Shown piece after piece: positions 42,117 to 57,605 of a DNA stretch of 59,560 nt. Numbering within the stretch: the stretch's first letter is position 1; each line of letters starts with the position of its first letter. The translations under genes and the position numbers were made by a program. The DNA is from a bacterium (GTDB lineage Bacteria; Patescibacteriota; Minisyncoccia; Phycocordibacterales; UBA6899), in contig JAJZQJ010000009.1 of assembly GCA_021851895.1 (NCBI GenBank), positions 1 to 59,560 of the forward strand, written 5' to 3'. The notes below the pieces were generated by a model. The model had not been told where the DNA came from. It worked only from the letters and a program-made list of their open reading frames with translations, and did not search any database.

Positions 42117-42188
42117 AACACTGGGCAGTAGCCCGGTGTTTTGTTTGTCCCCTTAGGAAGCCGGCGCTCGTGGTGTACAATAGTATCA

Positions 42189-43994
42189 ATGAACATTGAC
42201 TGCAGCGTAAAGGAGGATCGAGGTTTCACCTTGATAGAGACGGTTGTTTCCGTCGCGATTTTCGCTTTCGTTGCAATAGGACTCTATATGTCATATGCGC
42301 AGGTGATGAAGGTTGTCCATCGTGCGCAGTTGCGCGTGGCGACTACGGCACTCGCGACCGAGCAGTTCGAGATGATAAGAAATCTGCCATATAGTTCCGT
42401 TGGTTTGAAGAATGGAATTCCAAGCGGAGTACTCTCTCCACTGCAATCACTCGTGCGCAGCGGCATGACGTTCAATGTGGCAACGATGGTGCGCAATATC
42501 GACCTTCCCTTTGATGGGCTTGCTCCTAGTGATACGAATCCAGCAGACAATAAATTGGTCGAGCTTGATATCATGTGTACTTCGTGTAGCGATCAGATCC
42601 CGATGTCCTTCACGACACAAGTTGGGCCGAAAGATCTCGAGGCGTCATCGACGCTCGGCTCACTCTTCGTGCGTACCATAAATGCCACAGGAAGCGCACT
42701 GCCTGGCGCAACGGTGCACATTGTGCTCGCTTCATCTACTGCACCTGTTGACTATACGGACATCACTGGAGCAAACGGCATGTTGCAGCTCGTTGGTGTG
42801 CTTCCAGCGGTGAATGCATACCAAGTTTCAGCGACAGAACCTGGTTACTCCATTGATCAGACGTACTCTCCTTATGGTCCGACGACAACGCACCCCGTCC
42901 TTCCTTATGCAACGGTTGCTCCGGGGACAGTGACGCAGCTCACGCTCGCGATCGATAAACTTGCTGATCTCAATGTGACGAGTGTTACTCCCGCATGTAC
43001 GAGGATCCCTGGGGTGCCATTCACATTGACGGGTGCGAAGTTAATCGGCACCGAACCCGTCTATAAATACCAAGCGACGAGTACAACCGATGGTGGTGGC
43101 GGGCTTGAGTTGCCAAATATGGAATGGGATAACTACACTGTCGAGGCATCGAAAGCAGGGTATGATCTCGTTGGTATCAGTCCACTCTCGCCGTTTACAC
43201 TTGCGCCTGGTTCGACGCAAAATCTCCAGCTCGTACTTATCCCGCAGACGGGGAATCCTAATGACAATACGCTCCTCGTCACTGTTACAGACGGTGTGAC
43301 TGGGCTCCCGCTTTCGGGTGCGGATATCGTCGTTGAAAAGGGAGGTGAGGTTACGCAATATCTTACAACTGGACGTGGTTTCTTGAACCAGACTGATTGG
43401 TCAGGGGGTTCTGGGCAAGATATGTTCGTCGATCCAACCGCTTATTACAGTGATGATGGCAATGTCGATGTGAGTGGTACTGCGGGCTCGGTGAAGCTCA
43501 AGAAATTCGGTGGTGGTTACGCTTCATCAGGAACACTCGAGTCATCGGTCTTCAGTGTTGATACAGCAAGTAATTTCTATCAATTGCGCTTCTCACAGAC
43601 GACGCAGCCAGCAGGCACTGAAGCAAAATTCCAGCTCGCTACAGCGAATGCGACCTCGGGCCCATGGATATTCATTGGGCCGAATGGTACGACGACATCG
43701 TATTACACCGCGACGACGACTGATATAAGTCCGGTATCCTCTGGATATAAATATTTCAAATATAAACTCTATCTCTCGTCGACCGATTCGAATAAGACTC
43801 CTGTTGTTGATGATGTTTCATTTACGTTCTCTTCTGCATGTGTCTCATCCGGTCAGGCGTATGCTCAGGGGTTGCATAATGGTACATGGACCGTTACGGT
43901 CTCAAAATCCGGCTATGCGACAGAAGTTCAGAATGTCGTCATGAGTACGACCAAACCGTGGGGAACGGTATCGTTCCAATTGAATCCAGCCTGA
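42189..43994 (+). CDS. Prepilin-like surface protein with carboxypeptidase-regulatory-like repeats
   Basis: DRGFTLIETVVSVAIFAFVAIGLYMSY; SALPGATVHIVLASSTAP...TDITGANGMLQLVGVLP. Confidence 0.85.
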   Translation: MNIDCSVKEDRGFTLIETVVSVAIFAFVAIGLYMSYAQVMKVVHRAQLRVATTALATEQFEMIRNLPYSSVGLKNGIPSGVLSPLQSLVRSGMTFNVATMVRNIDLPFDGLAPSDTNPADNKLVELDIMCTSCSDQIPMSFTTQVGPKDLEASSTLGSLFVRTINATGSALPGATVHIVLASSTAPVDYTDITGANGMLQLVGVLPAVNAYQVSATEPGYSIDQTYSPYGPTTTHPVLPYATVAPGTVTQLTLAIDKLADLNVTSVTPACTRIPGVPFTLTGAKLIGTEPVYKYQATSTTDGGGGLELPNMEWDNYTVEASKAGYDLVGISPLSPFTLAPGSTQNLQLVLIPQTGNPNDNTLLVTVTDGVTGLPLSGADIVVEKGGEVTQYLTTGRGFLNQTDWSGGSGQDMFVDPTAYYSDDGNVDVSGTAGSVKLKKFGGGYASSGTLESSVFSVDTASNFYQLRFSQTTQPAGTEAKFQLATANATSGPWIFIGPNGTTTSYYTATTTDISPVSSGYKYFKYKLYLSSTDSNKTPVVDDVSFTFSSACVSSGQAYAQGLHNGTWTVTVSKSGYATEVQNVVMSTTKPWGTVSFQLNPA

Positions 43995-52287: not shown

Positions 52288-54525
52288 ATGCGTTTATCGC
52301 ATATTTTTGCCAGCTTCATTTTTGCTTTATTCATTTCAACAGCGCTTATGGCGCAAACACCAGTTCGAGTTATTTTTATTAATGGTATACAAAATACTCG
52401 AAAAGAAATTGCTGATTCTGCGAATGTGATTAGAAATGTTCTAGCAGCGCCGACACGGCACCAGCAAGGTAAGTATGCATTTAATGTTGAGTATATCGAA
52501 AACCCAATTGGGTGGAACGGTATCGACGCACCAAACTCACTATGGCAAGACAGCATTGAGCTTTTCCTCATGAAATTAGCTGAGGAGCAATATGCTGGAG
52601 ACCTGCTCAATCTGAAGTCTCCCGTGACTGGTCCGCCGCTCCCTACGAACCTGCAAGCAGCAACAAACGTTGCGCAGTTTGCCGGGAAGCTCAGGGTGAT
52701 GAATGCGGGCCCGACGCGTGATTTCAGCGCAGTACCATATGGGACACTCTTGGGTGACAATGATATCGATAGTGGTGGAGTTATTTCGGATACCGATCTT
52801 CAGGCAACCCAGGAATGCATTACACAACTTGCAGCAACACTGACCAGTGCAACCGCGCCCATCATCATCATTGCGCATTCGCAAGGTAATCTCATCGCTA
52901 ATCTCGCATATGCGAAAGCGGCGCGTGATATGTACCCAAGAAACATCAGTTCGTTTGTGAAGATCGTGAACATCGCGAATACTTCACAGATATCGCTCCA
53001 TAATCTCAACCTCACCCATGCGGACGATAAAGCACTTTTCTCTCCCATTGCCAGCCTATCAGGTCTCCCCTCATGGTACGGATGGAACAGAGCGGTCCCT
53101 TCGCTCGACACGAATACGGGGATAACCACCTATAGTCTTTCGACTCAGAACTTCACGCTCGATACTCCAACAGCATCGGGCTTAGTGAGTTTTACGTGGA
53201 CAGATCTCACGGAGCACGGACTCGTCGATGTGTATCTCTCGAATGATCCCGTCACCATGTCTGATACTCGCGGAATTACATTCTCTCCGGGATCATTCTG
53301 TATGCGTGACTACTTCGAAGATCTCGTCTGGACCGCTGCCGCGAGTCTCGATACAACCGCAGCGATGCCGACAGTGCAGATGCTCAACCCCTGTATCATC
53401 GCAGGTGAAGGCCAAAGTGTGACCCTGAGTGCTCAGGCAATGAGCCAGGTGGGTTCATTAGTTGAGGTTCACTGGGAACGGCTCGACCACCCCGAGGTGA
53501 ATTTCTCACTTCCCGCGTACGCCAATACCACCATGAGTGGCAACACCGCAACAAGCTCAGTGACATTCACTACGCCGTTTGTTGCGGCAACAACCACATT
53601 CAAGGTCGGCTTCTTTGCAAAAGATGACCGCGGTATGGTGAGTAGTGGTACTGCAGAAGTGCAGGTCCAGCATGGAAATCTTGCTCCAACCATCACTGCG
53701 GATCCGAGTTATGCAACCATATCAGGAACTGGGGTGACGCTCCATGTTTCTGCAGCAGATGCTGACGGCTACCTTGTTTCTGCGGTCGTTGAGCAAATAA
53801 GTAATACCAGCTGGCTCACAATTGATTCGCCGCAGACACTCACGACGAACAACAGCAATACTGCGAGCTGGGATATCCCAGTGACCATACCGGGGAATAC
53901 TCCCGGCGGTACTTATACATATCGCTTCACGGTTACGGACAACGATGGTGCTATGACTACGCGCTCTATTGACCTGGTGGTCACCCCAGACTATTTTGTC
54001 GATGATTTCTCTACGGTCACGTCAGTAATCCCAACACATTGGGCTGTTAATTCATTTGGTTCCAGTGCATTCGTCTCGGGTGGTGTGCTCAATCTCCAGC
54101 ATCTTGTTGCGCAGTCAATGAGTCTCGGCACACGAGCATTTCACGAGGGTACGAACTTTCGCACATACGCGAAACTCTCCGATGGTGGCTCCGTGCGCCT
54201 TACCGCAGGCATGGATGGTATCGCCATTGTGCAAAATGATGCCAGTTTTTCGCAGCGGTATCAGGTGCAGGTTTGGACAACAGATCCAAACACCTATGTA
54301 ACACAAACACAATACTTCGACTTTGCTATTGCGCCTGATGTGTATCATCTTTTTGAGTATATCTATGGAGTAGACGGTATGGTGACCCTTCGCGTCGATC
54401 AGGTATCGCTCGTGCAGACAATGAAGACGGCTCCGTTCTTTTATGGCGCCCGAATGCAGTTCAGCTATGGGCAGACGCTTCACGGCACGGGCACAATCGT
54501 GCAGTGGGCGGGCGTGACCCCATGA
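52288..54525 (+). CDS. Secreted alpha/beta-hydrolase-like protein with Ig/PKD-like C-terminal domains
   Basis: Signal peptide MRLSHIFASFIFALFISTALMAQ; nucleophile elbow IIIIAHSQGNLIANLA; gaggagatacttATG start. Confidence 0.75.
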   Translation: MRLSHIFASFIFALFISTALMAQTPVRVIFINGIQNTRKEIADSANVIRNVLAAPTRHQQGKYAFNVEYIENPIGWNGIDAPNSLWQDSIELFLMKLAEEQYAGDLLNLKSPVTGPPLPTNLQAATNVAQFAGKLRVMNAGPTRDFSAVPYGTLLGDNDIDSGGVISDTDLQATQECITQLAATLTSATAPIIIIAHSQGNLIANLAYAKAARDMYPRNISSFVKIVNIANTSQISLHNLNLTHADDKALFSPIASLSGLPSWYGWNRAVPSLDTNTGITTYSLSTQNFTLDTPTASGLVSFTWTDLTEHGLVDVYLSNDPVTMSDTRGITFSPGSFCMRDYFEDLVWTAAASLDTTAAMPTVQMLNPCIIAGEGQSVTLSAQAMSQVGSLVEVHWERLDHPEVNFSLPAYANTTMSGNTATSSVTFTTPFVAATTTFKVGFFAKDDRGMVSSGTAEVQVQHGNLAPTITADPSYATISGTGVTLHVSAADADGYLVSAVVEQISNTSWLTIDSPQTLTTNNSNTASWDIPVTIPGNTPGGTYTYRFTVTDNDGAMTTRSIDLVVTPDYFVDDFSTVTSVIPTHWAVNSFGSSAFVSGGVLNLQHLVAQSMSLGTRAFHEGTNFRTYAKLSDGGSVRLTAGMDGIAIVQNDASFSQRYQVQVWTTDPNTYVTQTQYFDFAIAPDVYHLFEYIYGVDGMVTLRVDQVSLVQTMKTAPFFYGARMQFSYGQTLHGTGTIVQWAGVTP

Positions 54526-54701: not shown

Positions 54702-57605
54702 ATGCGTTTGAATCTCATCATTAGTGTGGTCGCTTTAGCATCGATGTTTGCCATGGTGACGTATGCGTCTGTAAACTACCCTTCATCAGTATCATCGGGA
54801 GTTGCGACGACATCCATTGCAGCTAGTGATGATCCTGCTCCAGCTCGACCATTTTTCACGTGGTCGAGTTCTCCTCGTGAGAATATTTTTGATGCGGTGC
54901 TTCCTTGGGGAGAGAACGCGACATATGCGTTCCTCGAAGAGAATGGTGTCATCGTCGCGTCGACGACGCTTCGCGCGCATACGCCGTTTTCAGAGAGATT
55001 TACCTTTACCGCACCGATCCCTGCCGATGGCTATTATGAATATGACATAAAGTTGTGTGGTATGTCATTGGACGAGCAGGCATGCACACGCTCCGCTCCA
55101 CTTGCACTTGTTGTCCAAAAAGGTGTCACTACTTTAGAGAGTGATCTCGATGCAAGTGACCAGACGACAGTGAGAATCGATGAATTGCATGAGCGCTCGA
55201 TCGAAAACGCCGCGGCGTTTTTCAGGTCAGCAGAGGTGCGCTTGCACGGACTTTCAGGAGACTTGAGTTTGGATAAAGTCAGAACGCAGGGTGAGGAAAG
55301 CAACCTTGATCGCATACGCCGTATCATCTCGAGCGAAAGTAGGCGTGCCTTATTCGCTCCGACAAATAACATCTCACGCTCAGATCTATATGCCGCAATT
55401 GCTCGTTTTCCTGCATTTTGTAATGAATCATCTGCTGATGAGACGCTTGATGTCGCCTGCACGAGAGAGCTCGCCGCAGTCATCGCCTATATCAGTTATT
55501 TCACGAGTCACGGCGAGCCGAGTCTTGTTTCGGGTATGCGCGATCCGGGAGGAATCGAAAGACTTCTCGGAAATGATGTCGCTCGCTTTGATGCGCTGTT
55601 TCCTGCGGAAGATGATGTGCGTGGGGCATCTTTTAAAGAACGTATTCGCGAGCATCCCAGCGATGCATTGCTTGCTATCTTGTGGTGGTACATGACCCCA
55701 CAGAGTCCAGAGCCCGATCCGCATAGCGCCTTGTTGGGTATTTGGATTCCAAGTCGCGAAGATAGCGCACGTGGCATTGCTCCTGGATTCGGTGCGACGG
55801 TAAATATCATGAGTCATGGAAAGAGTTGTGCTCGATCGTCAGCGAGTGGGGAGCGCGACACGTTGTCTGCTTTGTATCACGGATTTTTGCTTGCGCTTCA
55901 TGCGACGGATACTCGTAAGGACTCATGCCTTGGGCAAGAGGCATTTGATCTTTCAAGCTCATCATTTGCCCCGCAATATTGGTCATGGGATGCCGATACG
56001 TCATCCTGCGTGCTTGGTGTCACTGAGAATGCATTCTTCGTGCAAGACGAGCAGGGTTACACACAATGCATGCGTGCCCATGGTGCGATGTCCCCACTCC
56101 CGCCACCAGCAGAGGAACGCTATGACCGAGCTTCAAGGATGATCGATGCGCTCCGTACGCGCATCGGGACAAGTACTGTAGAAGAGGGCACCATCACTCC
56201 GCCCGATCCACGAACAGCACTCGGCACAACGATCATCGGTACATATAGAAATCAGCGCGTCGATATACATGAGACGCAGCCCGCAACAATTCCTTACGCA
56301 AAGTTGAACACATTGTTTTACGAAGGCGCATATGTGAATGCTTCAGGGACGCTTGCACTCAGCAATCCCTATGCATTTAATGACATGCCGTTTTCAGATG
56401 ATTGTTATCGCGAGGATTGTCCTCGCGGGCTTGCACACCGTTTTCTGCTTGCGCATGGTCAATATCCTCATTTGCAACTTGTACTCAGTATTGGTGGTTG
56501 GGACGGTTCGAACAACTTCTCTTTACTTTCGAATACGGCATTGCGTGAATCCTTTATTTCATCGGTCCGAGGATTTCTTCTCGCACAACCAGATTTCACC
56601 GGTATTGATATCTCATGGATGTATCCTCAATATGCGGAGTATGGCGTGGGCGGCAAGACAGTGAATGACAGAGAGACGATGCGTGAGATCGTGCGAGGTC
56701 TTCGAAATATGCTCGATGGACTGTATCAGCAGGATGGTATGTTGCGACGGTTGTACGTCGGAGTCGGAGCACTTCAGGATGAGGTTGATGCGATCGGACT
56801 TTCCGATATTGTGAACTTAGTCGATGGCGTGCATCTGATCACCTACGATCTCCATGGTCCATGGGAGCAGAAGACGGGGCATGATGCGCAGTTGTTTGCG
56901 ACAAACATCGGCGATGACGTTTTGAGTGTCGCGAATGCGGTGACATTTGCGCGTAAGGCAGGAGTCCCTTCGAAAAAACTCATCATCGGCATTCCTTATT
57001 ATGGGAGGATATGGAGAAACGTCCCCGTGGGAACGAATCTATTGCTTCCGGGTTTTCAAGTTGAAGTACCCGCACGAGAGACAGCATCTTTGCTTGATTA
57101 CCGTACTATTGCCGCATCGATACTTGGGAAGGGGCAGTATCAATATTATGTCGACGCATTACGTGGAGCAGCATATCTTTATGATGGAACGAATTTTGTC
57201 TCCTATGATGCGCCCGACATCATTGCGCGCAAGATGGAATATGTCTGGCGGGAAGGTTTCGGTGGCGTGCTCCTTTCTGATGTGATGGGCGATGACGGGA
57301 CACTACAAGATAGGGTACTGCGTGTCATTGCGGAGCGATCGCAAAAGAAGTCATGCACGCTCACTCGTATGCCTACGCGGAACCTTGCAGTAAATAGTCG
57401 TGGGGCAGATGTCTTCGCTTTGCAGACATTCCTCGCTTGCCTTGGTGATATGCCGGAATATATCGATATAAACGGGAACTACGGCCAGGCGACCCAACAA
57501 GCGGTGATGCTTTTCGAAAAGGCAGAAGGACTCCCAATAACAGGCGTCGTCGGGAAGGATGTCCGCGATCGCTTGCAAGCATATATGAGTTCAAAAACAC
57601 CTTGA
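54702..57605 (+). CDS. Secreted protein with GH19-like and GH18-like chitinase regions and C-terminal peptidoglycan-binding-like domain
   Basis: GH19-like LYAAIARFPAFCNE...WWYMTPQSPEPDPHSALLGIW...GFGATVNIMSHGKSC; GH18-like LVLSIGGWDGSNNFS, GIDISWMYP, LITYDLHG, IGIPYYGRIW; PG_binding_1-like NSRGADVFALQTFLACLG...YGQATQQAVMLFEKAEGLPITGVVG. Confidence 0.8.
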   Translation: MRLNLIISVVALASMFAMVTYASVNYPSSVSSGVATTSIAASDDPAPARPFFTWSSSPRENIFDAVLPWGENATYAFLEENGVIVASTTLRAHTPFSERFTFTAPIPADGYYEYDIKLCGMSLDEQACTRSAPLALVVQKGVTTLESDLDASDQTTVRIDELHERSIENAAAFFRSAEVRLHGLSGDLSLDKVRTQGEESNLDRIRRIISSESRRALFAPTNNISRSDLYAAIARFPAFCNESSADETLDVACTRELAAVIAYISYFTSHGEPSLVSGMRDPGGIERLLGNDVARFDALFPAEDDVRGASFKERIREHPSDALLAILWWYMTPQSPEPDPHSALLGIWIPSREDSARGIAPGFGATVNIMSHGKSCARSSASGERDTLSALYHGFLLALHATDTRKDSCLGQEAFDLSSSSFAPQYWSWDADTSSCVLGVTENAFFVQDEQGYTQCMRAHGAMSPLPPPAEERYDRASRMIDALRTRIGTSTVEEGTITPPDPRTALGTTIIGTYRNQRVDIHETQPATIPYAKLNTLFYEGAYVNASGTLALSNPYAFNDMPFSDDCYREDCPRGLAHRFLLAHGQYPHLQLVLSIGGWDGSNNFSLLSNTALRESFISSVRGFLLAQPDFTGIDISWMYPQYAEYGVGGKTVNDRETMREIVRGLRNMLDGLYQQDGMLRRLYVGVGALQDEVDAIGLSDIVNLVDGVHLITYDLHGPWEQKTGHDAQLFATNIGDDVLSVANAVTFARKAGVPSKKLIIGIPYYGRIWRNVPVGTNLLLPGFQVEVPARETASLLDYRTIAASILGKGQYQYYVDALRGAAYLYDGTNFVSYDAPDIIARKMEYVWREGFGGVLLSDVMGDDGTLQDRVLRVIAERSQKKSCTLTRMPTRNLAVNSRGADVFALQTFLACLGDMPEYIDINGNYGQATQQAVMLFEKAEGLPITGVVGKDVRDRLQAYMSSKTP

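Follow-up and report, generated by a model that had tools for sequence, protein, structure and literature searches.

A putative exported double pseudo-chitinase in which GH19-like and GH18-like regions have both lost their canonical catalytic residues

Can a bacterial protein composed of two chitinase-type regions, each apparently devoid of its catalytic residues, be a maintained gene product, and what might such a protein do? The question is raised by an open reading frame at positions 54702-57605 (+ strand) of the window, the 59,560-nucleotide stretch of DNA (contig JAJZQJ010000009.1) that was analyzed here. The frame encodes 967 amino acids, was aligned over its full length with an ortholog from a sister species, and is present in one copy in its own genome (1.1 Mb, 99.7% complete). 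Judged by eye, a candidate signal peptide occupies approximately residues 1-22 (54702-54767, +), with both orthologs showing a basic start, a hydrophobic run, and an A-x-A-like end (MRLN...VTYA and MQLN...AHA). The N-terminal domain that comes after it (approximately residues 46-140; 54837-55121, +) is unassigned and is possibly of the chitinase-A N-terminal type (FnIII-like), the ChitinaseA_N match of the corresponding domain of the ortholog being below the cut-off (E 0.19). The remainder of the protein comprises a GH19-chitinase-like region (approximately residues 199-457; 55296-56072, +), a GH18 chitinase-like domain (Pfam residues 530-858; 56289-57275, +), and a C-terminal PG_binding_1 domain (residues 900-958; 57399-57575, +) that matched PF01471 above the cut-off with an E value of 1.5e-11, compared with 5.2e-15 in the ortholog. 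A first-pass annotation had reported the open reading frame, the GH19 and GH18 signatures, the catalytic losses in both, and a PG-binding domain, all of which were borne out by Pfam and sequence comparison. AlphaFold models obtained from single-sequence input for residues 46-470 and 501-967 had pLDDT values of 34 and 36, respectively, too low to be usable, and the GH19 and GH18 folds of the product are predicted here by sequence homology.

Pfam GH19 (PF00182) matched residues 325-382 (E 2.2e-11; 44.4 bits against a cut-off of 25.5), with the match confined to positions 149-206 of the 232 in the profile, which correspond to the C-terminal block. Alignment to bacterial GH19 chitinases with hhalign covered 250 columns with a probability of 98.3 and an E value of 1.2e-14, the latter referring to a single comparison with no database search behind it. 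The alignment with the Photobacterium and Pseudoalteromonas GH19 chitinases reached both the N-terminal block (FPAFC...C.RELAAVIAYISYFTS) and the Cys-containing tail, and the whole region was alignable to gammaproteobacterial GH19 chitinases. When the GH19-like half alone was compared with the PDB, all 22 matches at E values of up to 10 (best, 5.5e-17) were labeled as chitinases or GH19-type relatives. The H/Q-E-T motif is represented in these alignments by Y-F-T (55497-55505, +), as had been annotated, so that the first catalytic Glu of GH19 is replaced by Phe here and by Tyr in the ortholog (Y-Y-T). Across GH19 chitinases in general, the two catalytic Glu positions show 91% and 94% conservation (PMC8547705). 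The YGRG...NY segment had been described as unrecognizable; that motif is indeed lost, with YFGRG of the enzymes aligning to LLGND and FLGND in the two orthologs, but the change had been understated. The middle of the GH19-like region (55506-55682, +) is shortened: 62-66 residues separate the first-Glu motif from TPQ, compared with 111-114 in bacterial GH19 chitinases, and the approximately 45-50 missing residues include the whole stretch of the second catalytic Glu (RExGW), with the placement of gaps in this segment being uncertain in detail. Six of the eight Cys residues of the enzymes are kept and are aligned in all five sequences, and the other two both lie within the missing segment. A complete Cys pair is removed and the other six residues stay aligned, which is what a trimmed but still folded domain would be expected to show.

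The GH18 domain matched PF00704 with an E value of 1.5e-52 (179.7 bits against a cut-off of 29.6). The best match in the PDB was 5gzu (E 2e-69), of the 5gzt/5gzu chitinase, which we take to be a Paenibacillus enzyme, and CHI3L1 structures were also matched. Alignment with four bacterial chitinases (from Deinococcus, Burkholderia, Embleya, and Eleftheria; 29-31% identity) placed TGIDISWM at the position of DGxDxDxE. The first-pass annotation had read this motif correctly but had placed it at 56601-56624, three bases downstream of its real position (56598-56621, +); it had also noted the loss of the Glu, now Met, together with that of one preceding Asp, whereas two acidic residues are in fact gone, with Asp1 replaced by Thr and Asp6 by Ser. 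The corresponding motif of the ortholog is RGVDINWM. A further substitution had been missed: the Trp near the last strand that forms the floor of the GH18 cleft, and which stacks on the -1 sugar, is replaced by Ser859 (57276-57278, +) and by Ala in the ortholog. This groove Trp is retained in YKL-40. The SIGGW, TYDLHG, and IPYYGR sequences (motifs of the SxGG, MxYD, and YYGR types) are kept in both orthologs. Between the two proteins, the cleft segments HLxTYDLHGPWE and GIPYYGRxW reach 82-85% identity, compared with 58% for the whole GH18 domain.

GH18 enzymes operate by a substrate-assisted mechanism and GH19 enzymes by an inverting mechanism. Given that the canonical catalytic carboxylates are lost from both predicted folds, hydrolysis by either mechanism is very unlikely. 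The protein might still be an enzyme that relies on noncanonical residues and acts as a hydrolase or transferase on a different glycan, in line with the retention of both folds and of substrate-positioning residues (YD and YYGR of GH18) and with the constraint on the gene described below. We nevertheless consider such an activity quite improbable, with the acid/base Glu of GH18 being Met and the assisting Asp being Ser or Asn, with one Glu of GH19 being aromatic and the segment of the other deleted, and with neither Met nor Phe or Tyr being able to serve as the acid in these mechanisms.

The absence of catalytic residues from two domains at once might also be attributed to a decaying pseudogene or to an assembly or sequencing error. 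The sister species, which belongs to the same genus, encodes a 959-amino acid ortholog that is 51% identical end to end, has the same three Pfam domains, and is located at a matching locus, with rpsL and rpsG just downstream in both. Every catalytic loss, including that of the floor Trp, is common to the two proteins. Homologs with intact catalytic Glu residues had been named in the first-pass annotation as a sign of error; the sole full-length homolog also lacks them, and the refutation proposed there therefore fails. Since the losses are repeated in an independent ortholog from a separate genome, they are not sequencing errors. Comparison of the two genes yielded a pN of 0.35 and a pS of 0.77 (0.20 for pN in PG_binding_1), with the synonymous differences being saturated, for which reason no dN/dS ratio is claimed. 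With pN below a saturated pS and the frame intact in two species, the gene does not appear to be decaying, and its frame is, on this comparison, kept by selection, the conservation being thinly sampled by just two members. We therefore rejected the error or pseudogene explanation on the basis of the ortholog with the same losses, and we give it next to no credence. The earlier proposal of a degenerate GH19 and GH18 fusion with a PG-binding domain, kept in a homolog, is supported by the alignments and by the ortholog.

Two other genes in the window were noted. The upstream gene (52288-54525, +) encodes a 745-amino acid product with a signal peptide-like start, a lipase-type HSQGN motif, and a PKD/Ig-like domain (PF22352, E 1.1e-6). 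Its counterpart was absent from the sister species and from 19 other relatives searched, which suggests that it was gained recently or is species-specific. In the product of the gene at 42141-43994 (+), which is possibly a surface or pilus-associated protein, a CarboxypepD_reg domain accompanies an N-methylation motif like that of type IV pilins.

The double pseudo-chitinase was found in 2 of the 397 genomes of the order, both of one genus; the order is very genus-rich, and its genomes are small throughout. A profile of the GH19-like region detected no further relative in 287 genomes of the phylum, nor did a profile of the GH18 part (E 1e-15) in 384 genomes of the class. Scans of genome-contig and viral-contig collections yielded no confirmed relatives, and tblastn against plasmids and phages yielded separate GH18 or GH19 relatives only, none covering 80% of the query. 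The GH18 family is itself present in 136 of the 397 genomes, and its members read from the best-scoring loci, a subset of the GH18 genes of the order, have DGxDxDxE-type motifs with the Glu kept. The genome that encodes the double pseudo-chitinase also encodes two SleL-like GH18 proteins with the catalytic Glu (intact DGxDIDYE), and the double pseudo-chitinase therefore appears to be a specialized copy. At locus L036 of this genome (genome contig 7, 12500-16800), two adjacent GH18 genes point in opposite directions, both with DG/NGxDIDYE motifs intact; their counterparts in the sister species (L037) are also adjacent. A separate group of GH18 loci (L008, L009, L010, L011, L012, and L014) has D/EGxDIDWE, which reads DGVDVNWE in L012, together with SYSMAG where the TYD segment is usual. 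GH19 exceeded the cut-off in the two genomes with the double pseudo-chitinase only among the 397. One other genome of the order encodes, at locus L005 (598-1818, +), an endolysin-like protein that matches GH19 below the threshold; its PG-binding-like N-terminus leads into a GH19 domain of the endolysin type in which the AHESG and YRGRG motifs are intact.

The retained groove segments, the preserved frame, the signal-like start, and the conserved PG_binding_1 domain together suggest an exported, wall-associated binding protein. On balance, we favor as somewhat probable the view that the protein is exported, is sited at the wall by PG_binding_1, and uses as a binding scaffold two former chitinase folds that no longer hydrolyze. 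Its signal peptide-like start would direct export, the C-terminal PG_binding_1 domain would seat it in or on a cell wall, and the GH19-type and GH18-type domains, if folded as predicted, would be displayed as a non-hydrolytic scaffold. Polymers that contain GlcNAc, whether peptidoglycan, chitin, or a glycan of a surface, would be the likeliest class of ligand, and the groove residues that are left, among them W600, Y715/D716, and the YYGR-W segment, would hold them; binding of a protein would be the main alternative.

PG_binding_1 is the most conserved part of the protein, with 72% identity between the two orthologs, and eleven matches to this domain in the genome indicate that it is used there routinely. 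Both observations would also suit a structural wall protein or autolysin regulator, in which the dead domains would rest on the cell's own peptidoglycan and either shield it or act as competitors of the active GH18 and of the cell's other hydrolases. We find this explanation somewhat doubtful, in that on its own it does not account for the keeping of large chitinase-type GH18 and GH19 regions. The lack of the floor Trp and catalytic acids in the GH18 groove might instead indicate a protein-binding scaffold in which glycan binding has been lost, as in GH18 proteins of the xylanase-inhibitor type, with an enzyme to be inhibited or a receptor on a neighboring cell as possible partners. Plant chitinase-like inhibitor proteins are known (PMC3045311), and a Bacteroidales GH18-like protein is described as having lost catalysis as well as any measurable binding to the tested glycans (PMC11180146). 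Such a scaffold is nonetheless doubtful, given that the non-catalytic groove segments are more conserved than the rest of the GH18 domain and that a PG-binding domain is present.

The first-pass annotation had proposed a surface lectin or adhesin, possibly used by an epibiont to recognize host cell walls; as a hypothesis, such a role is plausible. Glycan binding by the GH18 cleft is uncertain, and the loss of the -1 Trp together with the precedent of BT1284, the nearest tested bacterial analogue, for which no binding to the glycans tried was measured, dictates caution with regard to a lectin. The small genomes of this genus-rich order suggest membership of the Patescibacteria (CPR), from which an epibiotic life of the organism may in turn be presumed. 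Little is known about how epibiotic small-genome bacteria recognize their hosts and keep hold of them (PMC12206443), and, if this organism is epibiotic, the double pseudo-chitinase would be a concrete, expressible, and testable candidate for these functions. We judge it unlikely that the protein represents a new class of surface recognition, in which two chitinase folds have been made into a wall-anchored receptor for the GlcNAc-containing surface of the host of an epibiont.

Of the bacterial sequences found, those closest to the GH19-like region, its Cys tail included, are the GH19 chitinases of Photobacterium, Pseudoalteromonas, and Aeromonas; these proteobacterial enzymes have intact QET, RExGW, and YFGRG and do not have a GH18 domain. 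The 5gzt/5gzu chitinase contains two GH18 domains, both with an intact catalytic Glu, and gave no GH19 match. Precedents exist for binding by GH18 pseudo-chitinases: the chi-lectins (YKL-40, TCLL), narbonin, and concanavalin B have a GH18 fold with a mutated DxxDxDxE or a blocked site and are without chitinase activity (PMC3662789). These proteins are eukaryotic and single-fold, whereas a GH19-like region and PG_binding_1 are fused here. Among bacterial proteins, BT1284 and the B. faecium GH18-like protein have a GH18 fold in which both catalytic acids are substituted and are catalytically impaired, and Bacteroidales GH18-like proteins resemble the present one in having a beta-sandwich NH2-terminal to the barrel; they differ in being ENGase-type and encoded in a polysaccharide utilization locus, with no GH19 or PG-binding part described in the available text (PMC11180146). 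Non-enzymatic GH19 proteins of lectin-like or regulatory type also have precedents. As here, the catalytic Glu residues of the non-enzymatic plant proteins of groups CHIT 3 and CHIT 4 are deleted or replaced, although by Lys or Ala rather than by Phe or Tyr with loss of the whole second-Glu segment, and these proteins are not fused to GH18 (PMC8547705). Accessory domains and tandem GH19 domains, but no GH18 fusion, are described in the available part of the GH19 database paper. A search of open-access papers by title and abstract found neither a GH18-GH19 fusion of this type nor a protein in which both folds are inactivated in one chain. Pseudoenzymes of the GH18 family and of the GH19 family are each known singly, and, within the scope of that search, their joining in one chain is new. 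The protein, a single bacterial chain in which two unrelated folds have lost catalysis in parallel, could provide a model for the conversion of an enzyme into a binding protein.
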